From Lytechinus variegatus (taxonomy: Eukaryota > Echinodermata > Echinoidea > Temnopleuroida > Toxopneustidae), in the NCBI RefSeq assembly GCF_018143015.1, contig NC_054741.1, positions 66,595,754-66,659,753 of the forward strand: a stretch of DNA of 64,000 nt. Reading direction: 5' to 3'. Positions 9,601 through 60,000 of this stretch are shown here, in pieces. Below the pieces are notes generated by a model. That model saw nothing but the letters and a program-made list of their open reading frames with translations. It did no database searches and was not told where the DNA came from. The position numbers were made by a program, and so were the translations under genes. Position 1 is the first letter of the stretch. The number at the start of each line of letters is the position of its first letter.

Positions 9601-12600
9601 GTTTATGATCAGAATAATGTCTGGAACAATTTCCATTGAAAAAACAATAAAAAACAAAAATTAAAAAACAAAGAAATACATAAGAAAATCATAAAACAAT
9701 AAAATACATAAGAAATTTATTTCAAAACCAAAGTTTTTTGAATTACGATTGTTAAGAATGCTACAAAGAAAATTTTTACCAAAAATTAGCATTCTAGGAG
9801 CTTTATTTAGTGAATTAGAGCAAAAAGTATGATTTATGCATAAATTAGCATAATTAATTCATATAAAATAAAATCTCATTATTTTGGAAAATTTTACCAT
9901 ACGGCCTTGTAGATTACATCGCACACTACCAGCGTGCAAATTTTTGCGTCGCTCGCGCGATTGGCGGCCGAGATCTTAAGGGGGGGCCATAATGGCCCCC
10001 CCCAGGAATGACAAGAATCAAAATACCCCGGGAGATTTAGGGTTAAGACTAGAGCCCCATTGCAAAAAAAGTTATTCTTATGTTACTATCTATACTATTA
10101 TAACAAAGAGCAATAGCGAACCAAAATCAAAGATTTCAAGGAAATTGCTATCAGATCAATATCATTCATGTTGAGGCAGCACACTTGTGTGACATTTCAA
10201 AATGATAATAAGACAGCTAAACAACGTACTCACCTTTCTTCATGTCCAAACTTAATAGAAACCTTTCCTCTCCATTGCTTTTTAAACACATCTCAAGATC
10301 TCTCATGCTGACAAAAAAAAACACAAAAATAAAATATAAGTACCTAAACAATGTATCAAAATGTTTTAATGTGTTAAATGTCAAGGAAACACTAGGCAAA
10401 AAAAAAGAATTCAATAGACAACATAACATAACTATTAGAGGCTATTTAATTGATTCAAATCAATATAGGTAGCTTTGAACAACTTATGTGGCTACATATC
10501 ACTTTTTTCAATCAATTAAATTGAAGTCAAATAAATCAGTCAAATTACCTTTTGGCTACTCTGTTGAATGGTATACCAAGGTTAAGCTTTAGAGGTCTTG
10601 TAAGTCCTGTATTGAAAAAAAATGACAACAAAGGTTGCAATATAACCTTAAGCTTATTATGACCAGTCGTGTGCAATAATTCTGAAAAAAGGAACAGTTT
10701 TTAACAATAATATCCCTTTTTATATATCTCTTGATGCATTGGAACATTAAGCACTTTAAAGACATACAGGAATAATCCCCCCAATTATATCAGGCCAAAG
10801 CTATTGATACTTTCAGGGCAATGCCATTTTTTTGAGAGGGTAGAGGGAAACTGAAGCTGACCAATACTGCATCCAAGGTCATGCTTGTGTAGAGCTGTAA
10901 TGTGATTAGGGTTCTGAAATAGGTATCTAAGATTTTTACTATTCTTGATCATCCTCTCTCTCCTGTGTTAGTAATCAAAATTCCATTTTTTCTTTGATCC
11001 TTGTCTTTTGTACATGTTCATGTTTACACATACTTGACAATATTTATGTTCTTATTCTCTGATTGGTTCTATCAACAGACTTAGGATCATTAATATTCAG
11101 TAGCAGCTATTCATGTTCTATGTTTATTCATACATGTATTTTATTGGTTATCTGTGCTATTTGAATATTCAATATTTTCATTTATGTAAATCAAGTATGT
11201 AGACATGTATATGCATATTAACCCTTGAGGTTTAATGTGATAGCTCAGGACAGATCTACACAGGCAAGCAAGGAGTGAACATGTTATGCTTTAACCCTGT
11301 ATATAGGGATACCATGCCCAATGAACCAGCCCAATGCCACCCTACACTTGTATGGCCTTGGATTAGAGCTGCTTGGGAAAAGCAGACTACTAAGAGAATA
11401 GACACTGTAATTAACAAAAAAATTAGGTTAGACTTACTCCATATAACAGGTTCCTTCCTATTAACTGCATCAGGTCCACACATACTGACATGAGAGCTGT
11501 GGAGGTAGTCTTGGACTAGGATGTGGAACCTGGTCTGGTTCAAGGTTTCCATGACAACGCAAGTCACTGCCCGGTAATTGGCATAGAGATGGAGACAGGT
11601 ACAGAGGAAGAAAAGTGTCCATGTCAGTCTGAAAAAAAATAAAACAATGGGACCTCTAGACAGTGACACTATATTCACATTAACCCAATATCAGAAATCT
11701 ATGCTGTTCTAAATACATCAAAAATGTCATATTTCTTCTGAAACATGCATAAAACTTAATGACAAAAGAAATCCCAGAAAAAATTTAAGTTTCCACTATA
11801 TGGCAATGCACACACTAAGGTAGACTTGCCTTTAATAGAATTGATGAAATATGTAAAAACTACATCTATCTATATGCTCTTTTCACTGAAAACAATATTA
11901 ACCCCAAGTTATATCTTTGATATTCAATAAATTTAAGCAACAATAGCACTAAAAGAGATTGTTCAATCACTCATCCCTGGAATAAGTCCAGTGTTTGGCC
12001 CTTTCCTTTAATACCTGAACTGGAATGTCTATGTACAAATCTTGTGAGAAGTAAAGAAATCAGGAATCAACAGATTACATTCTCTTTTTCATGCTCCCAT
12101 TCAGAAATGGGCAAAAAGTGGTGTACAACTCTTGATAACAAATATGATTAAGGGGCAAGCAATTGCCCATCCAGAAGCCTGTGTTGTGAGTAAACATGGA
12201 AAATATGTCACATTCCTCCTAACTGCCCAAGATTTAAAATTGTGTCTCCATTTCTTATTAAACCTCCTCCCATGTAAGTATTATCTTTTCAGGGGGTGTA
12301 TTATAAGATTCTGAAGATATCAACTAACTTTTTGTTAACACCGACCTACCCCATCTCTTTGATTCATTCTTGGATCCACCACTAACTAATTATGGCATGC
12401 CGCAGTAGTGTATAAATTCTTAAGGAAATGGACTCACAGGATGTTTTTTGATGCCATTGGAGTGATGATGAGACCTATAAAAAGAGCTGCTAAATTCACC
12501 AATGTTTCCTGAAAACAAATCAGGAAGAAATAACAATGAAAAATGAAATTCAATCATTAGCATTTTCAAACTTGAAGAAAAACCCTTGATAGATTTGAAA

Positions 12601-15600
12601 ACTTTGAGCATCATTAGAAGGCTGCAAAAATAATAATCTTAAGTACATGAAGATTCAAATTAAGAAGATTAAAAATTAACTTTAAAAATGCATAGACCCC
12701 TAATGAAATGTATTATTTTTACTTATTTAAACTTGATATTACACTTCTGAGAAGTTTCACGGTACAATGTATGTGCTACAGTGACAACTGCTCCACTACA
12801 ATTTCCACATACATATTGATTGATTAATTCAACCCTGGATCAAATAATATACCCTATCATAAATCTATCCAAATGGCTAACACAAAACCCCATTGTAACT
12901 ATATATCTTGGACGAAATATAGCCCGGAGTAATTGTTGCAGGAGCAAATATTGTGTAACCTTTCGAGAGCCACATACATTTGAATTGGAATTATGCAGTC
13001 ATCCAGTCATGTGACATTGTAGCAAACGAAAAGTTACCGGTACTTACAACATTAATAATGTCCCCAACTTAAACTCACTAAGACAAGTTTGGTGGATAGA
13101 TATTTTTAAACAATCGTTACACTGTAAAAATAAGGATATTTCAATTAAGTCTAGGTTATCACTGATTAAAGAGCTACTACACATCAATGACCTACATGTA
13201 CATGTATATCACACAGTGCTATAGTCCCATGTGCATTATTGATAGTCTTGATACATAAATATACCTTTTTCATAAAACAACCCGATCAAAAATTTTGATT
13301 TAAAAACTTTGATGGTCCTTCCATCTTCATTGAGAAACTGAATGTTAAGAGCAATTCTGTAAACATTTTGGTCCTTGGCAAACATTGTATGAATGTTCTA
13401 AAGATTAGCAAAAAATTATGTCTAATTATAGTAAGCATCTACATCCAGAAGCTATAAGAGTAGCTTAGACGTTAAAGAGGCTGATGCTGTTGAAAGTGGC
13501 TGCGATATGGTGTCTTCTACGAGAAGATGTTTACCTGAGAACCATCTTTAGCGGATACGTCAGCCATGTTGTTTCTCCGAGCTTGATGCATGGTGAGTGC
13601 AGCTCTTGTTGCTCCTCCAGCAACACCAACCATAGACTGAAAAAGAAGAAAGAAAGCAGTCCCATAAAATCAAATTGCTTGTTGATCATCCAGGAAGTAC
13701 CATGTTATCGTTGATATGATATTTTCCTTGAAGGTGCATTGCACATAAAATACAACATAGTATCACTTGATATTAATTTCAGATGGACTACCATGCACCT
13801 TCACTGAAGTTGATAGAAAGTTATCTTCAAAAGAATTTGATATGCTTTGATAAAAATCTTACTTGTGATTTGATTAGTTATAACAATAGTTACCACTAAT
13901 ATGTTCAGTGTTCCCTTTCCACTTTTTAAATTAAAACAAAAACATGAAATATGAAAAAAAATATGATACCCAATGGTTATTCCTGGTAAATGATGCTATT
14001 CCAAAGCTTCTTGATAGGGTTAGCATACTTACTTTGAACAATGATGACATGCATGCAATGATGACAAAGTATTGAGGAAAGAATACTGAAATGAGCTCTA
14101 TACAGAGTGCTGCATCATTCATGATGTCTGCAAACAATCTGCAAGGAGAGAACAGGGTGATGTAGATCTTTAATTTCATAACGATTATTTACTCTGTACA
14201 TTATTCATCAATACAAAATGGTAATGTGGGTCCCAATCACATGACTGGCTGAAATATATCACATGATTAATTTTACTTTAGCTAGCAGGTAAAGTTGCTA
14301 ATGACTGGTACTTAGACTAGTTCTACTGACCAGTGAAGATTTCCGGATGAGGACGGTTTATCAAGCATCAACGATCAAGATCACTATTTTCTACAATATA
14401 TAATTCACCGGTTTGCTGTAAAATTCAGTGAGCGAAAATTGAAAATATGACACTGTTATTTTTTTTGTAATACATACCCCCTACAATTAAAAATGAATAA
14501 GCTTACCTCCATCTTTTAGCATCACTATCCAGGCTTGACCTATGGTTAATGATAACAAATTAAAACAATCAATAATTTTTCCCCCAAGAGATAAGCAATC
14601 ATTTCTATGAGAACCCCATTTCATAGAACCTAATATGAATTTAAAAAATAATAGTTATTCTCAACCAGTTTGAAATGCCAATTTAGAAGCTTTTGTCGGC
14701 AAATTGTAATATTTTCCTTTTTTTCTATTTTAGGTCTAGGACAGTAAAGAGGAATAATCCCAAGTCAAATACCCGCATACATGCGGATTCCGTTGCCTAA
14801 TGGAACCAGGTAACTAATCAAATCAGATGTTTATTAAAAAACTGGGTTATGTGTACATTCAACATTTGAATTTTAATACAAACTCACTGCATTAGAATAC
14901 TTCTACACTAGTTGTCATAACTGTTATCATCATCATCATTCACGAATGAATTGCCATTGAGGAAAATGACGGTCCAATTCTAAATCTTCACCTTTGTTAA
15001 GTTTTCATGTTGAAGCAACAATGTGGTCAAATCTCATTGATCCTAAATGATCTTTGACCTTGATCATGTAACCTGAAACTTATACCACATGGTCACTGAT
15101 ACTTGAATATTATTATGGCTAAGTTTCATGATACAAATCCATACACATTCCAAGCTACGAATGCAAGACAAACCGATTTGTAGAAGAAAGTAAAATAGAC
15201 TAACCCTTGATACCATGCAAACGCAATTCTACCAGTCATACTTGTTCCATCTGTTTAAAAAAAAAGAAATGTAAAATATAAATCATATCACTGATATTTT
15301 TTTCAAACTTGAATATCTCAGAAACTATTTTAGTCTAATTACCAATTGTGATAGGATTTAAAAGAGCAAGAGCATGCTCACAATATACGCAAACCTTACC
15401 TCTTAGAAGCCATGTGACTATAACAGCAAAAGCAGAAGCAGTCTCCAACTTCTACTCTCTTCATTATCTATGCCCCCTCCCAAACTCCTAGTTGCAAACA
15501 ATATCATCAAATTTATGCAACATTGAAAATATATCGTAAATTCAATCATAGTTTTATGATTACGTAGTTTTATTGTGGTAACATGATGAGACAAAAATAC

Positions 15601-17496
15601 TGTCAATTATGTAAAATTAATCACTACCTATTGACCAAAAATGCTGCTCTGTGTTGCTTTAAACCAACTTAAAACTTTGTGAGTTGGTTCCCAAATACCT
15701 GCTTATCATGGACAATCACAAATAAAAGCCTTACTTTCATTTTCCTCTCCCCTGCTCTCACAGGATTACAGTTTCAGACTCATCAATATATTGTCTTATC
15801 AGTGAAATTTTGCTGGCTATAATCAACTAACATTGATATCAAATATTAACCAGCACTATTGGAAACTGACCTCTTAGTAGCCATGTGATTGTAGCAGCAG
15901 CAGCAGAAGCTGTCTCGTCACCTACTCCTACACCTTTCAGCATGGCATGGGTAGACAGAGTCCCAGTAATGCTGCTACTAAAAGCCTAAAGTTACAAACA
16001 TAAAACATGTATCATCAGACTTTGATGTAAGCTGGACATATAATTTGAAAAAAAATCACATGAAAAAAATATTTGAATGTCAAAATAAATGAACTTCAAA
16101 TCAAGTGAAATTAAGTGAGTCTAATGGTCTTTCATAATCTTCACTTCAAATGAGAAAATGGAGTTGTTGATATTATCAGCGCTGTAGCCACTAAGGTGAC
16201 AACAATTTTTGAAGAGCTAAATAACAAAATATTAATGGATTATATGAGAATTTTCTTCCTGAGTCCATGCAGTTGCCATAATTTTTCTTATTCTCAAATT
16301 AACAACTCTGATGATTAGAAATCATTGTTTGACTGCAATTGTTATCTCCTAAATTATACTTTAAATGTTGAGAAAAATATAACAAATTGTAATTGCTCAT
16401 CTTGGAACAAGTGGAATGCCTCTGGCCGTCTCACCTTTATCACGCGGTTCAATATAGAAGCAGTGCTGACTTTGAAAACTACTCTAACTCGCACAAGATG
16501 TTCAGTGATACATGGTTACTCTTATGTCCACTTTTTATGAAATAGACCAATAAACTTACAGAGATATGATGGTTATTCAACAAAAAACCCCAACATGGCC
16601 AAAGTTCATTGACCTTACATGACCTTTGACCTTGATCATGTGACCTGAAACTTGCACAGGATGTTCAGTGATACTTGATTACTCTTATGTCCAAGTTTCA
16701 TGAATCAGATCCATAAACTTTCAAAGTTATGATGGTAATTCAACAGATACACCCAATTCGGCCAAAGTTCATTGACCTTTGACCTTGGTCATGTGACCTG
16801 AAATGCGTACAGGATGTTCAGTGATACTTGATTACTCTAATGTCCAAGTTTAACGAACTAGACCAATAAACTTTCAAAGTTATGATGGTAATTCAACAGA
16901 TATCCCCGATTCGGCCAAAGTTCATTGACCCTAAATGACCTTTGACCTTGGTCATGTGACGTGAAACTCATGCAGGATGTTCAGTGATACTTGATTAAAC
17001 TTATGTCCAAGTTTCATGAACTAGGTCCATATATTTTCTAAGTTATGATGACATTTCAAAAACTTAACCTCAGGTTAAGATTTTGATTCCTCCAACATGG
17101 TCTAAGTTCATTGACCCTAAATGACCTTTGACCTTGGTCATGTGACATGAAACTCTTGCAGGATGTTCAGTAATACTTGATTAACCTTATGGCCAAGTTT
17201 CATGAACTAGGTCCATATACTTTCTAAGTTATGATGTCATTTAAAAAAACTTAACCTCAGGTTAAGATTTGACGCCGCCATCGCCGCCGCCGTCGGAAAA
17301 GCGGCGCCTATAGTCTCACTCTGCTATGCAGGTGAGACAAAAACATTCTTGGTGTATATTCCTCCTAAATAAACTGTATTTATGAGGTAATTTGTTAAAA
17401 TCATGGCAGTGAGTATACCTGTACAGTGTCCCAGATCTGATATTCTAAGTAGTCTTTGCTCACACTGTCTGGATAGCCTTGAGGGAGAAACACTAC
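6605..17496 (-). CDS. RUSF1: RUS family member 1 (C16orf58 orthologue), 13 exons, 5' end missing
   Basis: RUSF1 belongs to the ROOT UV-B SENSITIVE/DUF647 family of multi-pass membrane proteins; its biochemical role is not settled. Coding exons in transcript order (minus strand): 17496-17419, 15985-15871, 15250-15205, 14539-14507, 14138-14033, 13636-13535, 12508-12438, 11628-11438, 10606-10549, 10307-10234, 8925-8816, 7516-7468, 6795-6605 (stop). All introns are GT..AG and all phases join, giving 407 residues. Matches to the vertebrate protein from memory: VVFLPQGYPDSVSKDYLEYQ, TGRIAFAWYQG, LFADIMNDAALCIELIS, VAGGATRAAL, HQARRNNMADVSAKD, SQETLVNLAAL, LHLYANYRAVTCVVMETLN, and the end DEWRATW. 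The human protein is about 468 residues, so roughly 60 N-terminal residues (one or more exons above 17496) are unfound. The introns host repeats at 6890-7060, 9275-10046, 15028-15160 and 16407-17340. Confidence 0.93.
6890..7060. repeat. Tetranucleotide microsatellite (ATGA/ATGG)
   Basis: The stretch is built from aatgaatga, tggatgga and aataaatg units in the intron just upstream (in transcript sense) of the last RUSF1 exon. Long open frames across it, such as the minus-strand one of 67 codons rich in I, H and S, are a by-product of the repeat. Confidence 0.85.
9275..10046. mobile_element. TTAA-bordered MITE family 2, copy 1
   Basis: The ends are TTAACCCTAATTCTCCCGGG and CCCGGGAGATTTAGGGTTAA, inverted copies with TTAA as probable target duplication. 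Just inside each end lies a G-run/C-run block around ggggccataatggcccc. The interior shares gatgcccgggtacgcg, acgcaacattatg and tcgcacact with a second copy at 53483-54188. There is no coding capacity. It lies in a RUSF1 intron between exons 8925-8816 and 10307-10234. Confidence 0.75.
15028..15160. repeat. Lone diverged unit of the 'tgaccttgatcatgt' minisatellite
   Basis: The order ttgatcctaaatga, tgaccttgatcatgtaacc, ctgatacttga, aagtttcatga matches one repeat unit of the array at 16407-17340. Only one unit is present here. Confidence 0.6.
15400..15446 (-). pseudogene. Partial second copy of a RUSF1 exon (3' half plus splice donor)
   Basis: By eye 39 of 47 bases match the 3' end of the RUSF1 exon at 15985-15871, in the same orientation and about 470 bp downstream of it in transcript sense. 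The copy is open and encodes ETASAFAVIVTWLLR where the main exon encodes ETASAAAATITWLLR. The four differences are all hydrophobic or small residues. The donor GTAAGG and its phase are kept. The upstream half of the exon is absent and an in-frame stop lies two codons before the match, although an AG directly follows that stop. It is most simply a duplicated exon fragment; a short alternative exon is possible. Confidence 0.7.
16407..17340. mobile_element. Non-autonomous element carrying an internal minisatellite
   Basis: The left side has aacaagtgg and then GTCTCACCT; the right side ends CTATGCAGGTGAGAC, so the inner termini GTCTCACCT/AGGTGAGAC are inverted. Inside are about four and a half tandem units of roughly 153 to 186 bp, each with aggatgttcagtgatacttg, tccaagtttcatgaac and tgacctttgaccttggtcat. 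A GC-rich block (gccgccgccgtcgg) precedes the right end. There is no coding capacity. It sits in the RUSF1 intron between exons 17496-17419 and 15985-15871. A shorter copy lies at 26730-26995. Confidence 0.75.
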
Positions 17497-18306
17497 CTGT
17501 AATGGGATGAAAAGATGAAGATATTCCAAAAGAACCAGATCCAAAAGGTGAAATGAAGAAAATATATTCATCAAACATTTGAAAATGTATTATGTAAATA
17601 AAATGTAAGCATGTTAGCTGGTCATATTTGCTGGAATCAATTGTATCTGCATGCAATCTTGCTGCATTTAAGCCTAGCTTGGATAACTCTGACAATTTTG
17701 GAAAACAATTCTAGCTTCCCTGATATCCAAGCACTATCTCACTGTGCACAAGTTTGTAAACTGACAATAATCTGTAACTTTGTCAATGACCAGGAGATCT
17801 ACAGGATATTCTTTCTCCTTTATACCAGATGATGATGATAGTAAAAACATGTAAAATATTGAAGGGGGTAGAGCCCCTGGCACTAAAGCAATCAGCAGAG
17901 CAGGAGAGGGATTATGGCATACCGTTTCAGTATTTTCTTTAGGGGTTGTATTCTGTCCCCAAAATTTGACAACCAAAAAAAAGGTAATTACTCACAAATG
18001 ACAGGCATTTTGGTTTCCAGGAAAAAAAAACATTGATGAGCAAAAAAAATAAAGCCATTTGGGGTTATTCTCCTTTCCCACTTACAGTTTAGTTACTACT
18101 CAGCAAAACATATCCAAAAATGAAATTAACTTAATTTTTGTTCTAGAATGTCTCCTACTTACACTGGGGGCAACTGGGTGTAAGCATCATATAAATCATC
18201 ATGCGATGTACATGTTCATGATATCGGTTAAAAGTTAGTAATCCTGTATGCTGAAATAAGATTGACATGTTTGGATAATCAGTTTGTTTATCTTCTCTTG
18301 ATCTAG
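17497..18306. other. Probable RUSF1 5' intron sequence
   Basis: The acceptor of the first recognised RUSF1 exon is at 17497-17498, so an intron extends upward from here. I searched this interval, and 19775-21500, for the missing N-terminal exon without finding a motif I could defend. The open stretch at 20603-20821 (minus) shows no resemblance to known RUSF1 N-termini. Confidence 0.45.
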
Positions 18307-18310
18307 TAAT

Positions 18311-19770
18311 GGGTCATTCCATCTGGATTCACCCAGTGGTTGCACCTGACCGTCTCAGAATTCGTTGTAATTTGGTATACATAAAATTCACCATGGCTCA
18401 AGCACAAAACAAAAAAAATTACTCCAATCGGTCCGTCGGTTCTCGCGCTACGGCCCGCCCTTTTCTCCTTGTTTTGACAAAAATGGGCGTGACCTTCAAC
18501 TTTCAATGGCCACTGCGTTGTTACGTGTTGACCAATTTTCATGAAACTGGTACCATTTGATAGGAAATTCAGAGAGGAATCTAAAACATGCATTGAATAA
18601 TGTATTCGAGCAATTTATAAGGTCATGACCTTTGACCTTAACTTTGACCTTGAGTTTGACCCCCGGACAAATAATTTTTTAACTTGATTTTCGTGTATGT
18701 TAATTATTGGTATGATATTGACAAAATATGTTAAAATCAATGATGATATTTTATTTCTTCACCTTTAAAAACTCTTCCAAAGATACCATGAAATTTCACT
18801 CTAGTCCCACACACTGATATTCATGTTAGTAAAGTGTTTACCAGTTACATGATTTCTTCCAATCTTAAGTTACAGTATGCAAGCACATGAAAAGAAATTA
18901 AGCTTAATCAGTTCACAAATAAAAGATTAAACCTTTATGCTCATGAATAGGTATCTGTTTAGGCATTTTATGATTCAGCAATATATATCATATACATATA
19001 TATACATGTATATATTTTGATGAATAAAGTGAAGACTACTACCATGAATATATATGATATATATTGCCGAACTTCAAAATGAATATATATTGATGAACAT
19101 CAAAATGCCTAAACAGATACCTATTCATGAGCATAAAGGTTTAATCTTTTATTTGTGAACTGATTAAGCTTAATTTCTTTTCATGTGCTTGCATACTGTA
19201 ACTTAAGATTGGAAGAAATCATGTAACTGGTAAACACTTTACTAACATGAATATCAGTGTGTGGGACTAGAGTGAAATTTCATGGTATCTTTGGAAGAGT
19301 TTTTAAAGGTGAAGAAATAAAATATCATCATTGATTTTAACATATTTTGTCAATATCATACCAATAATTAACATACACGAAAATCAAGTTAAAAAATTAT
19401 TTGTCCGGGGGTCAAACTCAAGGTCAAAGTTAAGGTCAAAGGTCATGACCTTATAAATTGCTCGAATACATTATTCAATGCATGTTTTAGATTCCTCTCT
19501 GAATTTCCTATCAAATGGTACCAGTTTCATGAAAATTGGTCAACACGTAACAACGCAGTGGCCATTGAAAGTTGAAGGTCACGCCCATTTTTGTCAAAAC
19601 AAGGAGAAAAGGGCGGGCCGTAGCGCGAGAACCGACGGACCGATTGGACTAATTTTTTTTGTTTTGTGCTTGAGCCATGGTGAATTTTATGTATACCAAA
19701 TTACAACGAATTCTGAGACGGTCGGGTGCAAAATTGCACATTCATTGGGTGAATTGGCATGGAATGACCC
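18311..19770. mobile_element. 1460-bp foldback element with almost perfect 660-bp inverted arms
   Basis: The left arm runs 18311-18969 and the right arm 19102-19770, opposed around a short AT-rich centre rich in atatat. The termini are GGGTCATTCC and GGAATGACCC, and TAAT flanks both sides (18307-18310, 19771-19774). The arms look near identical over most of their length, with visible divergence mainly in the outermost 60 bases. As a result the same peptide-like frame beginning MHVLDSSLNFL appears at 18303-18593 on minus and 19478-19855 on plus; this is not a gene. The near identity implies a young insertion or arm-to-arm gene conversion. It lies in the probable first intron or promoter side of RUSF1. 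Confidence 0.9.
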
Positions 19771-19774
19771 TAAT

Positions 19775-27616: not shown

Positions 27617-33996
<6,380 letters not shown>

Positions 33997-37658: not shown

Positions 37659-40600
37659 ATGTTTGAGATAGTTCTCTTGTTGTCCGTGGTTCTTCTTCAA
37701 GAAACAGGTAAATATTTAAGACTATTCACTGCACTCATTATCCTTTGATAGCCTCGTGTCATGAAAATTAATTGAAAAATACTCCATGTGCTAATCATTT
37801 TTCTCGTAACTTCTTCTCGAAACACACGACCCCCTTAGAACTGGTCCCGTTGCCAAGTAACGCTCAAACACAAGGGCGAGGATTCCAATGCACCAGAAAA
37901 TTTCAGAATGATTTCGTTAACCTCTTGTGTAAGTAAAGTTTTCCATAAAGTATCAGCAAATCGTTTAGTTGACAACTTGACAACAAATAAGTACATTGAC
38001 CATAATGTACAGAAGGCTTTAACTTATGGTATCTATGGTTGCGTGGAGCACAATCAAGTCCTACATGAATAATGTCACATAGTAAAGCCAGGGAACGCAT
38101 TGTACATGTCACGTTCTTTGACTTAGCTCATGCTTTTGGTAGTGTATCTCATGAGTAAATTTTCCATTCCCTACGTCGATTTCATGTGCCAAATCAATCC
38201 GTCAGTGTACATCGGTAATCTATATGGTAGATTGCAAGGTCAAAGGCAATAAATGATCATCTGAAACATTTATGTTAAAAAAAGGTGTGTTCCAGGGAAA
38301 TCCCTTTTCACCTATTATCTTCTTGTCATGTTTTAACCCCCTCATTGAATACCTCGGTCAAATGAAAAATAGTCTGGGAAGTGACCTGAATGGCACCAGG
38401 ATCATAATTACCGCGTACGCCGACGATTTTACTTCAATAACAAATAACAAAATACAACATCAAAAGATAATCCATAATTTATATTCATACACATCGTCGA
38501 TAGGACTCAAATTAAAACCTTCCAAATGTTGCAGTCTGTCAATCTGTGGAGGTAACCCGAAATAAATCAAGATCTCAATCGGCACAGAATATATTCGTTC
38601 AATCAGAGAAAAGCCCTTTGTGGGTCAAATATATGTTTCAGTGGCAAACCAGCTGAGGTATATGATTTTGAAATTGCCGATAAAATCCAAAGATTAGACA
38701 CATTATCTGTCCGCCCTACCTCCATGAAAAAACCCACTTAGATAAACTCGACGTGCTAGCCGATAAATACCTAATTGGTTAGGTATCCCTTCTCGAGGTG
38801 CCCACATCGCTATGTCCCTCTTAACTCAAGGTCTCAATATTCCATGACAATCCGACATTTACAATCAATCCCAATCCACCGCTTTTAGCAGATCGAGAGT
38901 TAAAGCGGATTCAGTAGTTAACCTAGCGATTGACTCTGCTATGGAGAGAGAGTCACATTGGTCCCGTGAACTGTCGTACATTGTAATGAAACCCATCGTA
39001 GAGTTGAATCTTGAAAACACTACCAGTGTTGAGACTATAGTCCATGGCACACTGTGAAGAAAACCGTTAAGGAGATAATAGAGGAAGACCAGTAAAATAT
39101 TGGTTTGATTAGAGTCTCTCTGGGTTCAGGGACAAATTGCCTTATTGTTGTTTCTGGAAAACGAGAACTATGGCGCTGTCACACCTTGGCGTTTTAGACA
39201 GCGTATGCCCGACGTATGAGGAATTTGGCGAATACGCTGGCGTACGTCGAATACGTTGCGGGTAAGTTTTGCATAGGTTAAGAGTACGCTAAAACACGCT
39301 GGTATACGTCGTCATACGGTGAGGTCGTCGAAAAATGTTGTGCAAGCACAACATTTTTCGACGTATGCCAGCGTATGGCTCATACATCCCGCATACGTGG
39401 GCCATAAGTTGTAGGCAAGTTACGCGATCGTTGATACACGTTGACACACGTTACTCGTAAGTTACTCATAAGTCGATGTACGTCGAGATAATGTCCAGCG
39501 TACCCTAAAACTTACTTCTAACCATTGAAAATCAAGTTTGTATAATCTTCCAAAACGAGTTCTCAGGTTTGTTGTTAATGCGTATATTGACTCTTTGCCC
39601 TCTTATACAAACTTACATACCTGGGCTAAAGGCCTAAATTATAAGTGTTTATTCTGCGCTGGTACAACAGGCACCTTTCAACATATTATACTCTCAAACT
39701 GCCCAGTCTTCCTTGAGAGATATGAGTGGCGTCACTCTGAAGTTCCTGCACAAAACATTTCATGAAAATTTGACTAACGGGAACATTTATACTGACTCTG
39801 AAGGGCATTCAATCGCAGGGGGCCCATACCTCCCAACATTCTCACAACATCTATGCTCCATGATTTAATAATTTTTCGGAAAAAAAACAGAAAGAGACAA
39901 TTATGACCGAATGAACAATCGCATTTGAAACCAACCTTGATAATGCACACCAAAGGAAAGTATGACTGGATCGTTAGGGACATCAAGGAAAAGGGCTACA
40001 CAGTGTCTAGGCGATAGAAGCCGGAGAAAGGGGCCTAGTAGACCAGAATGGCAAACACCGCCTTAATGAACACTCCTGAGAATAACAAGCTCAAAAATCC
40101 GACCAACGAATACTTCCATACCATTTCTAAACTCGCCCTACTTTTTCGATATTTTACGCAAAAAAGGGCGAACCTGGGGGAGATACGACACTTGGACCCG
40201 TAACCATCCCCAACATTATTCACTTAGTCAGGCTTTTTAGTGTATTAATTAAAGCCAAATACACTTTATCATCATTACTTTTCAAACTTTGTAATGTCGG
40301 AAACTAATTAATTTGATCTGAATACACATTAACATATATTGGTCGCGTCCATTTATTCAGCGTCCCATTGTTATACTTCCGTATTCGCCGTACATTTTCA
40401 ATTTATGCAGTAACAAATTAATTTGATTTATATCCGATTCTAATTTAGAAATTTGATTAAGTGTTTTTTTTTCAATATGATATCAATGAGAGCTTTAACT
40501 TTATTCTCCTGCATTTGATGTTACTTTGAATAATTTTCTGTATTGGTATGTGTTACTTTTGATATGTACCCCATGTATTGACCTGCCATTCGTCTGGAAT

Positions 40601-43600: not shown

Positions 43601-46600
43601 TTTGCTGTTCTGTGCAACATTTGTAGTGGATGCAGACATCCGCAATTTGGATCTATTTGAATAAGATATTGAAACATCTAACGCATATCTTGCGCTTGTT
43701 TAACCACTTGCTTGGGTGATTCTGAAGAGGATTAAAAATACCACTTAGTCAAAGAAAAAAAAATCAAAATCAGTTGGTACTTTAAACCCGCATATTAACG
43801 CGGAAGTATTACCACCAATTAATTGATTGGTGGGGATTTTTTACCTGATTGCTAAGAAAGCATGATTGCTTGTAAGCAAGCAACCAGAGGACCGACGGCT
43901 TAAGATCCTCTCCGAAGGACCTGGTAATGAGGATTAATGTCTTACCAAAGGGCACTTAGCGCACCAAATGAGAATCGAACCCGGGTCACCGGAATACGAA
44001 TCCCCGCTCTACCGACTGAGCTAGATATCGCGCCTCCTATAATTGGATAGAGTTGGCAGATATAATCTGTTTTAAAGTTACGAGTAGTTTTTAAATAATC
44101 ATTTTACGTCAAATATCTTATGAAAAGAAACATACTATAATCTAAGGTGAATTACATGTAATTCAACCAAAGGCTTTAACATCACTGGATAAAGTCACTC
44201 ATGAATACCCATTGCGAATGATGAATGGATCTAAAGTCCATTTCATATTACTTCGTTAAGCAACGGAAGTCACCATTCATCTTGTATTTTCTATTTGTCT
44301 CTTAACAGGTGCATATGCAACAGTAGGAGGAGATCTCTTTGAGATATCATCCTCATCTAATAATTCTTATGATGCTGTGTCTCTAGGATGTCCAGCTAAT
44401 ATGGATAACATTACTCGCTGCTGGTATAAGCGTATGGAACGGAAGATCCGTTTGGACAAGAGTATTGCTATTGTTTGTTGTACATGTGAGTATTCAGAAT
44501 GATGCGATTTTCTTTGAAGGGCAAATAATTTTTCACAATATGAGTTCAATTCAATATCAAAGTAAACCGATTAAAGTCAAATAAAACAATATGTAAAGAT
44601 AAAGTACTGGAAGTTCAACAAATTATAACCAAATTAAATGTAACGTCATACCCGGCAGGCAAAAACACTTTGTACATTCGGTGGCAACGAACGTAGTCTA
44701 ATAACCGATTATTTTAGTCAGCTTGTTATTTCTTCGCTCTAACCACTATACCACTTCTATACCAGTCTTTATAAAACAAAGACTGGTTATCAAATATTAT
44801 ATGTTTATTATGCCAAAGTATTTGATTTCGAATATCATTACAGTTAGGGTTAGACATAGGCTAGACACATCTTTCAATGTGGTAACAGTTCTAAAAGTTT
44901 CCCAGGCCGCCAATATTTATTTGTAAAAAGTTGGTATTTTCCTTTCGTTTATAATTTTCAGTGTTTTAGTACTGAAATTACAATTTAAAAGGAACGAGAT
45001 ACCTCCTAGGAGGTCAATATGAACACATTTTTTTCCATTTTTCTGTTTTGTCATTCGAAAACCTTCCTAACCATTTTAACCGAAAGCTTAGCATTTGATG
45101 GTGTACATCAGTCATTATTCCACCATTAATATAATTATCTGTTAAAGTACATCTTTTAATTTTTTCTACTTTTCTGTTCCAAATGAATCTAAACACTATA
45201 TTTATTTAGAATTTTCAGGAATTTCGTTGGAATGGAATGAACAATGCTCAAATGTATTATTTGACTAAGTGCTAAACATTTAAGAATAGTTACCCGACCA
45301 AAAATAGCTAAGTTTCGTTTTGACCAGCGTTTTACGAGCAGAAACGGGATTGCAGGTGTCGGGCGTTGAAGCAGCGATCCGTTGCTGTGATGAACTTTGG
45401 TTTGGCGTTGGTATGGAGGTGTCGGAGAGGGACCAGCATTCGACTATGTGATGTATGGAAATGAAGACTAACCACGCAAGCTTGATGTGCAGCGTTGTAA
45501 GCATGCGCGAGAGAGAGCAAGATGGCGTAACATTAAATGGCAGACACTACTCTACATCGGTGTGCTATTATCTCATTATTATGTATCCCTTTAAGAACCA
45601 CAACACAAGAACATAACAGACTATAAATACGGGGAGAAATGGACCAGGGGCCCATTTGGAATCTATCAGAACTTCTATCAAAGACATCCGTTCAGCTCCG
45701 TAGTCAAAAGCGGTATGCCGCTAAACCAACTTAAAACCCCCGCCGAGCCAACATCCGCATGTGCAGAACGCCGCTCTGTCAACGCTTGCGTCATCGCTAA
45801 AGCAACGTTGGCTTCAGCGGTGCACCGCTAAGGCAACAATTAGCGTTCTCGAAATTCGGCCCCCTCTCCCTTCCGTTCAAGGAACGCTCCAACAAAAATC
45901 GGGCGATGTTACCTGGTCTTAAGTTTGTTTTACAATGCAATTACAATGCAGTGTTTGCAGTTAGGGAAGAGAGAAGGGAAGAGGGTTAAATTAAAATAGG
46001 GTTTTCCCCCCTTTTTCTCTACAGTCATTATTTAGTGATAGAGTGAATTTTAATCTTAATAATGACCGATATGGATTTTCAGTTTCTTTTTTATATAACA
46101 GTGCTTATACACACAATCAGTTTAATTAATTATGGTTATCAGGACCGCTTACAATTCTGCATATGTGTTTTCTATACAACAGCGTACATGTGCAACACAC
46201 CCCGTGGTAGTCCTCTAGGTCTAGAAAGCGGTAAAATACATGATGATGCTATTTCAGTTTCAAGTGAGTGGAGCGAGACCACTGTGGACAAAAATAAAGC
46301 TCGTCTTAATGGTTACTCTGCGTGGCGCCCTAACATAACCCACGACGCTGACCCCTGGCTACAGGTTGCCTTTGATTCCGCTTTTATCATCACAACTATC
46401 ATAACACAAGGCAGACCAGTATTTGAAAGACAGTGGACGACCGCATACAAAGCGTCCTACAGTATGGACGGAACGTCATGGGCCTTCTACCAAGACACTT
46501 CTGCTAATACAGACAAGGTAAACATCGATATTGCATCTTGTCCTCTTTTAATATCCTATACAAAACAAAGCCTGAAACAACTTGGAACCAAATCTGAGAA

Positions 46601-49600
46601 CAGAGAGGGGGAGATAGCGAGCGTAATTAAATACTGTTTCAATCCCAATAATTGCATTATTATCAGAGAGATTTTAATGAATACACCCATGGCCAAACGC
46701 CTGTGTGAACAAAACCTCACGTGGTTGTTTATGATTTGGTCCAAACAAGTTTGGGGAATATTTATATGATATTGACTGGCCTTGGGGTCTTTAGATTGAG
46801 TTTTACAATTTCGATAACTTTTTTTACATTAACATCAACACTGTGCAGTGTGTTGTCGCCAGCAACAGAATCATATTGCCCCGACTCTTAAAACGAGGGC
46901 AATGTGGATCTTTCAAGGACATTCCACAGTTAAAGTGAAATCCATGTCATTTGCACCAAACATAGAATCATAGAATAGTAAGTAGCACCTGAATATTCCA
47001 AATATGCAAAAATTAACGTGGGTCTATGTGCTTGATTTTGTGCTATAGAGCTTTGAACGTTCACCCAAATGGATGTTCTTAAGAATTACGCATTCAAAAA
47101 AATTTGGAATTTTTAGACCTCACGAGATCACTACAATGAGTTTAATCCTCTATTACTCAGTCAAAATCCATGAATATTAGATTTCGCAGCATAGTTTCGA
47201 AACATAGTTAATAATTGTATTCTTTAAGATGGAAAATATAACATTGCTATTTGTATGCTCTTTTACGTTTACGATCACCGTTTTAAACAACGTTTGAAAA
47301 CGCTGATTCTGTCCTCGCAATGGAAACATAAACACACCCTCAGTCTGGGTCTTAAAGATGGTGTGAAAGACAACAAAAACCCAATCTCAAAAATGTGTAA
47401 TTTCAATACAAATTTGAGAAGTTCAATAAATGCAGCTGCACTTATTCAAAACCCATGTCATTTTCACCAAATTTTGCATAGAAGATATATTTAAAAGGTG
47501 TAAACATTTAAAAAAATAGGGGTTCATGTTTTTTATGTTTTCAAATAATCAGCACTTTTATCAGAGCAAATGTGCTTTTGAAAACTGCATTCTCTGATTA
47601 TTATTATCATGATGAGTAGGCCTAATCTTAAAGGGGAATGAAACCTTTGGAATAAGTAGGCTTGTGTCGAAACAGAAAAATCAAAGAAACGGATCAACGA
47701 AAGTTTGAGAAAAATCTGACAAACTATGAGAAAGTTTTGTGCATTTCAATAATGCAAGCACTAATTCTATGGAGATCCTCCCATTGGCAATGCGACAAGG
47801 ATGTGTGATGTCACATGTGAACAACTTTCCCTTTGATGGACTATAAAATACCCCCAAAATGTCTCTTTACTTTTTCTTATGGTGATACATATTCTTTATC
47901 CATGATGTATTCTTTAAAAAATTGTATTACATGCCCTCCTATAGAAAGAACACATGATCTACTGATAGATGTGATAAAAGAGGCAATTTAAGTGAAATAT
48001 ATACTAAAGTAATGGGGAGAGTTGTTCAACAGCATGACGACAAGTGACATCGCACATCTTTGTCGCATTGACAGTGTGAGGATCTCCATAGCATTAGTGA
48101 TTGTAATATTCAAATGCTCATAACCTCATTATTTATCTGATTTTTCTTAATTTTTCGTTGATCTGTTTCTTTCATTTTTCTGTTTTCACACAAGCTATCT
48201 TGATCTAAAGGTCTCATTCTCCTTTAATATTTGGCCTACTTTAAACAGTTTATCCGGCATTATGAAAATTATGAATTACCATCTTATCATACAACCATGT
48301 TTTTGCGTTTTCTTCAGGTCTTCTCAGGAAATTACGACGGTGAGAGTCAAGTAGAACACAGCTTCTCTGCACCCATCGTATGTAGATACTTTCGTATCCA
48401 TCTGCTAAAGAGCTTGGGTTATAAGAGCCTCAGGTTAGAACTCACCGGGTACGGTCCCATCAATGAATTATTAGGTGAGCACAAATAATGATCAGTGATC
48501 ATGATGTCAGTGCTTCCGATCGAATTTGGAACTAAGCTAATACGAAGTTTTAGTATTCAATTAGAATTTAACGTTTGAACAATTATCGGAAATTATAATT
48601 TAAGATAAGATTTAGTTTTTTTCACACCAAATATAGAAATTATGGCGCTGTCACACCTTGGCGTTTTAGACAGCGTATGCCCGACGTATGAGGAATTTGG
48701 CGAATACGCTGGCGTACGTCGAATACGTTAAGGGTAAGTTTTGCAAACGTTAAGAGTACGCTAAAACACGCTGGTATACGTCGTCATACGGCGAGGTCGT
48801 CGAAAAATTCTGTGCAAGCACAACATTTTTCGACGTATGCCAGCGTATGGCTCATACGTCCCGCATACGCGGGCCATAAGTTGTAGGCAAGTTACGCGAT
48901 CGTTGATACACGTTGACACACGTTACTCGTAAGTTACTCATAAGTCGATGTACGTCGAGATAATGTCCAGCGTACCCTAAAACTTACTTCTAACCTATGA
49001 GTAACGTGCTTTGAACGTATGTGTAACTTAACTCCAACGTATATTGACGTATGAAGACGTGCTCCGGACGACCACAAAACTTACTGAACGTGTTTATAAC
49101 TTACAGCTACCGTATAATGGCGTATTGACAACGTTTATAGGAATTGGTATATAAAGGTGGGGTTCACAGGAGGAACCCATCAGAACTCACGAAGACTTCA
49201 TGGTGAACAGATGCCCATGCCATTCGAGAGATGGAGGGTATCGTGCGGTTATGATTTGAATAGTCGAGCGGCAGCCTTTTTATAGGCTACGACACGTGTT
49301 CGTCAGCGATACGCTGCCGCGCGCTATGCGTAAGTTAGGCTATCGTGGGGCATAAGTTGTGTACGCCAGCAATACACTAAGCATTCGTTGGAATACGTTA
49401 CTTATACGTTAACGAAGCGTTCGATATAAGATACTAATACGTTATGTATACGTCCAACTATGAATACTCTAAGTATACGCCCACAGTTGAAAAAACGCTG
49501 TCTAAAACGCCAAGGTGTGACACCACCATTAGATTATACGATATCTGATAAATGTGTTTAATTCTATTTGTGCGTGAATAGTAATAAAGATCTAGTACTA

Positions 49601-54857: not shown

Positions 54858-55508
54858 TTAAAGGAAAATGAAACTTTTGGAACAATAAAGCTTGTGTGAA
54901 AACAGAAAAACCAAAGAAATAGATCTTTCTTTGACAGATAAATGGCGCTATACAAAATAATGCTGTGTATCATCATCATCAGATCAACGAAAGTTTTGGA
55001 AAAATCTGACAAATAATGAAAAAGTTATAAGCATTTGAATATTGCGGTCACTAATGTTATATATATTCTCTGATTGGCAATGCGATAAAGATGTGTGATG
55101 TCACTTGTGAACAACTTTCCCATTACTTTAGTATATATTTCACTTAAACTGCCTCTTTTATCGTGTCTATCAGAAGATCATGTTCCCTTTCTATTGGAGG
55201 GCATGTAATACAGATTTTCAAAGAATGTGTTATGGATGAAGTGTTTATAACGGGAGTTTGTATCACCATAATAAAGAACGAGAGACATTTTGGGGGTATC
55301 TTATAGTCCATCAAAGGGAAAGTCGTTCAAATGTGGCATCACACATCTTTGTCGCATTGCCAATGGGAGGATCCCTATAGCATTAGTGATCGCAATATTC
55401 AAATGCTCACTCTCTCATTATTTGTCCGATTTTCCCCAAACTTTCTTTGTTCTTCTTCTTTTTTCCACACAAGCCCAATTGTTCAAAATGTTTCATTTCC
55501 ATTTGAGG
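54858..55508. mobile_element. TTAA foldback MITE (family 3), second copy
   Basis: The left end TTAAAGGAAAATGAAAC and much of both arms match 47628-48227 (gatcaacgaaagtttt, tgtgatgtcac, cgcattgccaatgggagg, cacacaagccc). About 60 bp of unrelated sequence (tttgacagataaatggcgc and gtatcatcatcatc) interrupts the left arm. The right end is diverged (tttcatttccatttgagg). Confidence 0.75.
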
Positions 55509-57037: not shown

Positions 57038-60000
57038 TTAGACCTTTAGTCTCACTTCGTACATTTCGTCATAATATTTCATAGCCCGATCGGTACATCT
57101 GATGACGTCAGGTGTAACCTCATCACGTGACGGCATCTTGCTTGGGGGCAAAAATTCACAGCTATTGATGGCAGTTTCGAAGAAGTGCCCAAGCTTGTCA
57201 ACGTAACCATCAGCATGGACCATCCACTTCTTTGTCACATCAACAGACGAATCCCATTTCAAAAGTGACTCGTTATACGGCAGCCCTGCTGCTTGACAGA
57301 TCTTCGGTAGCATTTCAGAAGGATTAGACAAAAATTCATCGCTATCGAAAATTACCGTTTCTTGACCAAGCTCCTCTTGGACAAACTTCCACATATCGTA
57401 GAGGTCTTTGAATAGCATCGAACCTGATCCGTTTGCGTATTGGTAGTCACGCTCAAAGTCGAATGTTTCTTCGACGGCAGCTTCCCCGGTTAGGAGACCC
57501 AGATCTAATTGTTGGTTGAACATCGATTTTCGTGTTGAGTTGAACACACGGAGCGGGTGACGTATCAAGAAGATATGCTTGAAGCCTTTTGGGATAAACT
57601 TTTTCTGCTCTTTAGAAACGGCAAGGGCCATATCTTTGACCAAGACGTGGCGACTAGTTGTTTTCTCCAGCTGTCGACCAATGGATGCATAACTATCGAT
57701 AAATCAAGATATGGAAAAAGAAATAGTTATGTTTAAAAAGAAAGTTTGATGGTAATAGGACTTCAACAGAAAAAAAAATCAACGCTACAGGTTTCTTTTA
57801 AAAAATCCATTTCAAGGGTAACTAATATCAAATAAATCATATCATGACCTTGAACCTTGAAGAGTAATCCCTTTCAGCAGCTTCAAAGCTATCCCGGGAT
57901 GACGTAATTCTGCACGCAATCACGCGAAATTTAGAAAAATTTGATTATTTTGATGAGAATGAAATACACTTTATAATTACATAAATACACAAGAAAAGAC
58001 CTCCTAGCTCTAGCATTGATGAATGTAGGTGTGCGGATGTACATGAAGTCTCTTTTGTTAATAGGAATGAGTTGCTTTTATGCACTGTTAAATTTTTAGA
58101 AGTGCTTTTAAAATACGGTTAGTTACGCGGCAAGGTATATAAGGAGGTTAATTTCAGTAATTCGAGGAAAACCACTTAAAGCTAGAATAGACCACAAATG
58201 TTAGTGTAGGCAGTATAAGTTAAAACTGAGGGACTTCGTCGGTGACGAGATGACGACCCCAGCTGCCGCCGCACAGTGGGCCAGAATGAGTTGAAGTGCG
58301 CCAAAATTATATTCCGTGTTATATTTTTACTTCAACATGTTTACTAAGTGTAATTTTGGGCGTAGAAACGACTGAATGTGATTTAAAGCCGGTCTGACGA
58401 AACTTTGATACCAAATTTTGATTGGTTACTTAAAACCTATCTGTGAAAAAGACAAATTACGCTAAACAATGTGCAATATAGAAACTTTGTGTTATGTGTT
58501 ACTTTAAGATTGACCAGAGTGAATGTTGGTTTATGCTTCTCACATGCCTATAAAGTGTGTATGAGATCCTGAAAATAATATTATGGCATCAAATTGATCA
58601 TTAGATGAAAAGAAATACTTAAAAATCTGAAAAAAATATTAACCGTGCAGTCCGTGCTTTATCAAGCGGCGTAGACTTGAGTATAAACGCAGAGTATATA
58701 ACAACACGAATGTTTTACTATGAGGAGGGTTTATTGCTGAAATTATTCTACAAGTAACATTTATCTCTGGAAGAGGGTGGGTATAGTCCTAGTATGCGTT
58801 GTCAACCTTAAGTCCGGAATTCATGTCATTTTCATGAAATGGAAGGGGAATCGTCCTCGCCGTGCAAAAATGAACGGGAATGTTCACCCCACACGGTGCG
58901 CTGCCTGCGCGGTATGAAAATGATCGTTTTGGGGTGTTTTGTCAAGTAAAATCGGCTGTAACATGAAAACGGGCAAAAACGCGCAGCTAAATTTGGTATC
59001 GACTTAAAGCTTTGATATCTGGCAAAATGATGATGATAGAATTTAAACGGAAATCCAAACGTTTCTTATGTAAATGCAAAAACATGAATAGTCAGCCTAT
59101 TTCGAGGAATGTTATCCTATAAACCTTCTGCAATGTGTCTTTTATCTAATTTGAACCCTTTCACAAGGAAAGAGAATATATCAGGATTATGTGGGTGCCA
59201 TTTCAGATTCCTACATGAAAAACCTGTGAAATGGCTTATTTTTCAACTATGTTGTCATATGCGCGGCATTTCGAAAAATTTTACGATTTGAGATAGGAAA
59301 TTAACAACCTTTATGCAAATTCCCGAATGAAATATTTTGCTGAAGTATTCTTCAAAGTGTTGTCTTTCAGTTGGGCATGACAAAATTTAAAAGTTTGAAA
59401 TTGCCCAAAATGACTTTTGGCGCACTTTTGTTTCGCGCCGGCCAACTGTGCGCCGGTTCTCCACCGACACATCATGATTGGTCAAAATTCATGTCATCAT
59501 TGGGGCTCGATCTCGTTCACTAATTCGTCAAAGCCACATCTCTCTGATCTGGGGACTACTCATCAAGGGGTAACACTGCGGAGGCTGGGTCGATTGGAAA
59601 GACACCGCCAGCTGCGGAGGCCACAAGATTGAAGAGATTTGATTAAATCTTTAATAACTTTATTGATCAGTTTTACGTAATCCTCCTTTTGGTGTCAAGC
59701 AGCAGAAGCTATTAAATTTTTTAATCACTCCACGTGACAATGATTCACCATCCAAGTTTTTTTGTGCAGATGCCCTCAATAAATATACATACTTACGATA
59801 TTTTTTCTGGTTTGGTAATATTACCCACTCCAAATTCTCGAGAACGATCAACGACACGCTTGAATATCTCCTCATTTCCTTCGTATTTGTTTGGTAGATC
59901 CAATTCAAACGTTTGTTTAACATGAACTTGTGTAACTCTGCAGTTGGTAAAACGTTCAAACCATACTTCTATATCTTTGATAAAACTTAGACTCTTGGTA

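Follow-up and report, generated by a model that had tools for sequence, protein, structure and literature searches.

A young family of palindromic foldback transposons in Lytechinus variegatus with partly homogenised arms and probable arm-to-arm recombination

A palindrome upstream of RUSF1 exons

The window, i.e. the whole 64,000-bp stretch of Lytechinus variegatus DNA that was analysed, carries five minus-strand matches to PF04884 (UVB_sens_prot), at 11496–11630, 13520–13645, 14006–14143, 15869–16030 and 17410–17502, a family that we take to be RUSF1. With these matches located between 11496 and 17502, the description of the palindrome in an earlier note on this DNA as lying beside RUSF1 is apt: it is found 815 bp upstream of the nearest PF04884 exon (Table 1). 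Because that exon has a splice acceptor, at least one more exon should be present upstream of it, on the side of the palindrome. A search upstream of 17419–17496 located no earlier exon; as read from the splice sites, the palindrome probably resides in an upstream intron. On the minus strand the palindrome folds into one long hairpin with a minimum free energy of -1191.5 kcal/mol, and a transcript of it is a possible source of double-stranded RNA for ADAR or Dicer, as predicted from this fold.

Other features of the window include a tandem array of 163- and 186-bp units (82–94% matches) at 16486–17270, between two PF04884 exons, and another, more diverged inverted-repeat element with two copies about 7 kb apart (47615–48240 and 54858–55453), which are in opposite orientation and internally palindromic. 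The plus strand encodes a reverse transcriptase fragment (PF00078, E 2.5e-12) at 38257–38562, trypsin-domain frames at 30666–32504 and an F5/8 type C frame at 46047–46766, and a sulfotransferase-domain frame is present on the minus strand at 57041–57703. An Rfam scan of the window at gathering scores gave no match.

The palindrome itself occupies 1460 bp (18311–19770), precisely where the earlier note had placed it. Alignment of the arms, reported there as nearly identical and about 660 bp long, gave a gap-free inverted match of 649 nt each with 99% complementarity and seven mismatches, at 18347, 18422 and five positions of the inner end (18970–18978); the longest mismatch-free run between them is 547 bp. 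The centre that had been put at 130 bp is indeed present but comprises 94 bp by gap-free extension. The outermost ends, 29 bp on the left (L) and 39 bp on the right (R), are related and asymmetric, matching over 28 nt at 82% with a 10-bp indel; their first 12 bases are common to both, as are most of the next 16. TAAT, which had been noticed on both flanks, lies directly outside both ends of the element and constitutes a perfect 4-bp target duplication. Chance does not explain such a palindrome, because the second-longest inverted pair in the 64-kb window (seeds of 12, length of at least 40) is 129 nt long at 90%. In each arm Tandem Repeats Finder detected only a short array with a 12-bp period.

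Table 1. Coordinates of the palindromic element and of the nearest RUSF1 exon in the window
Feature	Position	Strand	Remarks
Nearest PF04884 (RUSF1) internal exon	17419..17496	-	ACAG acceptor ending at 17497, GT donor after 17419
Target-site duplication, left copy (TAAT)	18307..18310	+	4-bp duplication perfect in 34/39 copies
Left (L-type) terminus, GGGTCATTCCATCTGG...	18311..18339	+	First 24 bases: 255 genomic matches with at most 1 mismatch; reversed control 0
Left arm, 649 bp	18340..18988	+	547 bp (18423–18969) perfectly matched by right arm
Centre (spacer), 94 bp	18989..19082	-	Inverted relative to ends as compared with most copies
Right arm, reverse complement of left arm	19083..19731	-	Inverted-repeat alignment
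Right (R-type) terminus, GGGTCATTCCATGCCA... on minus strand	19732..19770	-	First 24 bases: 287 genomic matches with at most 1 mismatch; reversed control 0
Target-site duplication, right copy (TAAT)	19771..19774	+	Identical to left copy
Family end sequence			GGGTCATTCCAT ends, with 4-bp duplications

A dispersed family with the marks of a DNA transposon

Related sequences were sought in the assembly from which the window comes (869.6 Mb in 33 contigs). The left arm gave at least 79 matches (40 out of 506 first-look candidates being scored); copies with the same ends, which the earlier note had proposed to look for, are present on at least 16 of the 33 contigs and, among the matches listed, are mostly 93–99% identical to the left arm of the window copy. 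Genome-wide, 255 L ends and 287 R ends were identified by their first 24 bases with at most one mismatch, as opposed to none in reversed controls. Among the matches listed (the first 100 exact ends of each type, contigs C1–C5), ends 1.3–1.7 kb apart formed 42 L-R pairs, no L-L pair and a single R-R pair, one end of which also belongs to an L-R pair. The family also has shorter L-R members, down to 245 bp.

A perfect 4-bp duplication flanks 34 of 39 full-length copies on C1–C5 and a longer one flanks none of the 39. The duplications vary (TAAT, AGAA, AGGT, CATT and others); in the 30 tabulated non-duplicate copies with a perfect duplication, A and T predominate among their bases and there is no fixed motif. 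The termini are of the GGG...CCC form, i.e. RR...YY, and the left arms of different copies of subfamily A differ by 1.6% on average. The window element thus belongs to a young family whose few hundred copies are dispersed through the genome. By its structure, this family is a non-autonomous foldback (palindromic MITE-like) DNA transposon, its ends and duplications being the marks of a cut-and-paste DNA transposon with a body that has become a palindrome.

Two samples of copies were compared. The first was picked by likeness to the left arm of the window copy and comprised 30 loci representing 28 elements; after L011 and L014, which are without a right end, and the shortened L022 were dropped, 25 were left, or 23 without duplicates. 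The second, picked by ends, comprised 39 copies on C1–C5, namely 38 of the 42 exact L-R pairs of 1.3–1.7 kb and L075, which has one right-end mismatch. Non-duplicate copies number 33 in subfamily A and 13 in subfamily B, with L059 and L073 in neither. Several copies have the same immediate flanks at separate places (L059/L060/L083, L006/L007, L040/L041 and L073/L081) and represent duplications carrying the element. All copies are known from the assembly alone rather than from reads, and for any single copy an assembly error is possible.

The difference between the two ends is well preserved. In the 13 B copies, a sample chosen by its ends, the L/R difference is intact in 204 of the 208 marker cells that fall within the first 38 columns, and the count of L-R versus R-R and L-L pairs is independent of that choice. 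We infer a requirement for one end of each type in transposition, or else that exchange seldom extends as far as the termini.

Coding content and long members

No coding sequence of note was seen in the window copy: the stop-to-stop frames of at least 90 aa that touch it (93, 103 and 132 aa) represent repeats of the arms plus flank. A search for an autonomous partner covered the exact end pairs on C1–C5 that are more than 1.7 kb apart; five were read whole and a 4033-bp pair in part, and a 2804-bp pair was left out. The five long members (2.0–6.5 kb, L061–L065) are palindromes broken up by other sequence between exact ends, and the longest frames were 137 aa in L061 and 148 aa in L062. For L066–L068, which have no right end nearby, neither a matching right end nor a frame longer than 141 aa was detected. 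Searches with end variants returned 5, 1, 11 and 0 places, the 11 being a third subfamily. No transposase partner with the ends of the family was found among the long members or by the end-variant searches. L061 (G000:C2:10991300-10998100) is a family copy interrupted by about 5 kb of sequence with its own inverted arms of 596 nt (99%), that is, one foldback-like element nested in another.

Homogenisation of the arms

Nine mutations in the 33 non-duplicate A copies are private to one copy and yet present on both of its arms, as compared with 0.07 expected if the arms mutate alone and at equal rates at all sites; on the same assumption, the 13 B copies carry eight such mutations against 0.10 expected. 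Six of the eight come from L043, where they fall at columns 546–631, inside a stretch in which its arms are identical. The two arms of a copy are closer to each other than arms paired at random: within-copy divergence is 1.65% in subfamily A versus 1.99% for shuffled pairs (none of 20000 shuffles as low) and 3.72% in subfamily B versus 4.13% (14 of 20000 as low). In the B copy L082, six successive B marker sites (columns 153–531) carry the left-arm letter on both arms. Together with the erased arm differences of the window copy (see below), the private mutations and the L082 run support the arm conversion that the earlier note had suggested.

Homogenisation is only partial, because own arms are the nearest to each other in just 4 of 33 A copies and 3 of 13 B copies and because the consensus arms of subfamily B differ at 21 columns. 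Several derived alleles are spread over many copies. Duplicates of the same locus show no clear conversion and do not settle whether homogenisation happens in place. Later changes affect one arm only in L006/L007 and L040/L041, and either conversion or one-arm mutation would account for what is seen in L059/L060/L083 and L073/L081. In particular, the patches of L060 were rejected as a case of in-place conversion, since one-arm mutations that arose in the ancestor of L059 and L083 would account for them just as well. Of the two explanations that had been offered for the likeness of the arms, youth and homogenisation by conversion, each has support, and the arms are both young and partly homogenised.

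Orientation of the centre

Of 46 non-duplicate copies, 7, the window copy among them, have a centre turned round with respect to the ends, a feature on which the earlier note had not remarked. These comprise 6 of 33 A copies and one of 13 B copies, L043, whose sister L080 is unflipped. The first sample may be enriched in flipped copies, because it was chosen by likeness to an arm with a flipped-type inner end; in the sample picked by ends, 3 of the 19 A copies that are not duplicates are flipped (2 of 18 once the window copy is set aside), as is one of 13 B copies.

An outer-arm tree of 47 copies (without the duplicates L007, L041, L060, L083 and L081, and without L073), built on sequences that may exchange patches, has well-supported branches that force at least three changes of orientation in subfamily A, and the shortest count is five. 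Shuffled orientation labels require 5.8 changes on average, with 103 of 500 shuffles giving as few as observed, so the flipped copies are not clustered. Some of the changes may be reversals. The flipped window copy groups with the unflipped L003 and L055 (support 99/96), and its variant of the centre is present elsewhere only in those two unflipped copies (L055 being the locus of L004), i.e. in 3 of 33 copies. Likewise, the flipped L020 has a rare centre variant in common only with the unflipped L023. Since these variants match those of unflipped relatives, the centres of the window copy and of L020 were turned in their own lineages and not imported. Flipped L018 and L033 have a centre variant in common, and their flips may be one event. 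Among the titles and starts of abstracts listed from the open-licence literature, none reported recurrent inversion of the centre in a eukaryotic foldback family.

Inner arms of flipped copies

At columns 585, 592 and 623, L003 and L004, to which the window copy is most closely related, carry right-arm letters on the right arm, as do 13, 13 and 17, respectively, of 18 unflipped copies in the sample picked by likeness. In the window copy both arms carry the left-arm letter at all three columns, and it keeps the outer arm difference at column 46 that is common to L003 and L004. Columns 519, 642 and 669 were considered as further erased differences and rejected, because the changes there are almost confined to L003 and L004; thus, only three erased differences stand, all of them towards the left-arm letter.

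A similar pattern is seen in the flipped B copy L043, which has no differences in 143 inner positions as compared with seven in 136 in its sister L080, and which retains its outer arm differences except for one. In the flipped A copies L033, L018 and L020 the inner-arm alleles have swapped sides along with the centre, reciprocally in the case of L033, and the remaining three are uniform at the swapped sites. Inner-arm differences average 3.5 in the 6 flipped A copies and 6.7 in 27 unflipped ones (one-sided rank test, p = 0.006). L051 combines swapped inner alleles with a centre that is not flipped, and two events are needed to account for it. This inner-arm pattern is as expected of arm exchange with nearby conversion; a double template switch over a hairpin looks the same.

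Arm recombination and its alternatives

Taken as a whole, these data make it very probable that this is a young non-coding palindromic transposon whose arms recombine, converting patches and inverting the centre. The window copy was inserted at TAAT, with the 4-bp duplication made in the process, presumably after mobilisation in trans by a putative transposase for which one end of each type is probably required. Conversion would copy patches from one arm of a copy to the other, and the centre would be inverted together with the inner arm by exchange or by a double template switch with the same effect. Such recombination, which might proceed either in place or during transposition, would help to keep the arms alike and would leave the copies in two isomeric forms. 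The variants of the window copy mark it as a flipped isomer with a uniform inner arm.

The likeliest alternative attributes both the likeness of the arms and the flips to replication template switching across an extruded hairpin and not to homologous recombination. Arms with a 94-bp spacer are prone to form hairpins, and template switching predicts the same products, uniform inner arms and inversion, as seen in L001 and L043. The present data do not separate it from exchange, and the middle-arm tract of L082 and the reciprocal swap of L033 fit exchange at least as well; we regard template switching as a possibility of some weight, below even chances.

Conversion between different copies that pair in reverse could in principle produce flips and shared mutations too, because every arm is homologous to both arms of all other copies. 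The spread of several derived alleles over many copies is in line with it, as are the erased sites of the window copy, all of which take the family's common left-arm letter that any copy could supply. Nevertheless, the window copy and L020 have flipped centres with the variants of unflipped relatives and not those of other flipped copies, and each of the nine A and eight B mutations present on both arms was seen in just one copy of the sample, which makes this explanation unlikely.

It is more unlikely still that the arms are alike through youth alone, with no exchange, and that flipped and unflipped copies represent old subfamilies that spread separately. The low divergence of the family (1.6% between A left arms), the centre variant that flipped L018 and L033 have in common, by which some flips may be inherited, and the duplicates without clear conversion all agree with that explanation. 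Against it are the window copy and L020, flipped while relatives with the same rare centre variants are unflipped, the minimum of three orientation changes in subfamily A in addition to one flip in B, and private both-arm mutations at about 100-fold the expectation. Finally, retention of the palindrome for double-stranded RNA that acts on RUSF1 or feeds a small-RNA pathway would agree with its single long hairpin on the minus strand and probable intronic position but is highly improbable given the copies at many other places.

Rapid loss is the expected fate of long palindromes. In this dispersed family of near-identical ones, marker sites show the direction of copying between arms and any turning of the centre, so that palindrome conversion, exchange and inversion can be counted away from sex chromosomes. 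We propose, tentatively, that inversion and conversion may be ongoing in place in the germ line and that individuals may differ in the orientation of single elements. If so, the mapped marker sites common to its few hundred related copies might make the family a natural genome-wide reporter of long-palindrome processing in a eukaryote, and the L/R asymmetry of the ends might mark where selection for transposition stops homogenisation.

Comparison with known transposons

The comparisons below draw on excerpts of the cited papers. KolobokP has RR...YY termini, short TIRs and 3–5-bp duplications without strong target preference (PMC9587614), and Sola2 has 4-bp AT-rich duplications (PMC3627910). 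The window family has both the RR...YY ends and a duplication within the KolobokP range, as well as the 4-bp AT-rich duplication described for Sola1/Sola2 (the Sola2 feature being from PMC3627910), but the long terminal direct repeats of KolobokP (PMC9587614) are absent from it, its long repeats being inverted. KolobokP and Sola2 thus fit by ends or duplication only. The TTAA-specific duplication of classical Kolobok and piggyBac does not agree with the varied duplications.

Five places with PF05551 (His-Me homing endonuclease) matches are present in the assembly (G000:C19:1882240-1886926, C5:10482163, C5:10747962 and C14:22196098), two of which are neighbours separated by 4.4 kb; they match at 99.6% over 2.8 kb and resemble a tandem KolobokP element. 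At the four of the five loci that were read, over 3.2 kb with about 1.5 kb on each side, the family end (first 12 bases, at most one mismatch) is absent; L091 and L092 have one end site with two mismatches each, without the rest of the end. A literature text query with the terminal letters returned, among the matches listed, unrelated biomedical titles.

Inversion of a transposon interior is known from ISWpi1 of Wolbachia, where recombination between TIRs has inverted it at 2 of 22 loci (PMC3004938). The window family resembles it in that its interior is probably turned by recombination of the element's own inverted ends. However, ISWpi1 is a bacterial element with 23-bp TIRs that, in the excerpted account, lost their asymmetry (PMC3004938), whereas the window family has 650-bp arms, belongs to a eukaryote and keeps its asymmetry.

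Among foldback elements, Tetris of Drosophila virilis has 8–10-bp duplications and tandem arm repeats of about 220 bp and is referred to Mutator by its authors (PMC4079207). Like the window family, it is non-autonomous and has long inverted arms and target duplications, and in the excerpted account no transposase copy was found for it (PMC4079207). In contrast to Tetris, the window family has 4-bp duplications and only a short 12-bp-period array in each arm; a Mutator-type foldback of the Tetris kind does not fit, as it needs an 8–10-bp duplication and the duplication here is 4 bp and never longer in 39 copies. Galileo, of the P superfamily, makes 7- or 8-bp duplications with the consensus GTATTAC (PMC4168063). 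It resembles the window family in its long dynamic inverted repeats, and some of its copies are restricted to the arms (PMC4168063), but its 7–8-bp duplication differs from the 4 bp without consensus seen here, and the P superfamily does not fit either. To the extent that these excerpts represent Tetris and Galileo, with their 7–10-bp duplications, a foldback family with 4-bp duplications therefore points to another transposase lineage taking the foldback form.
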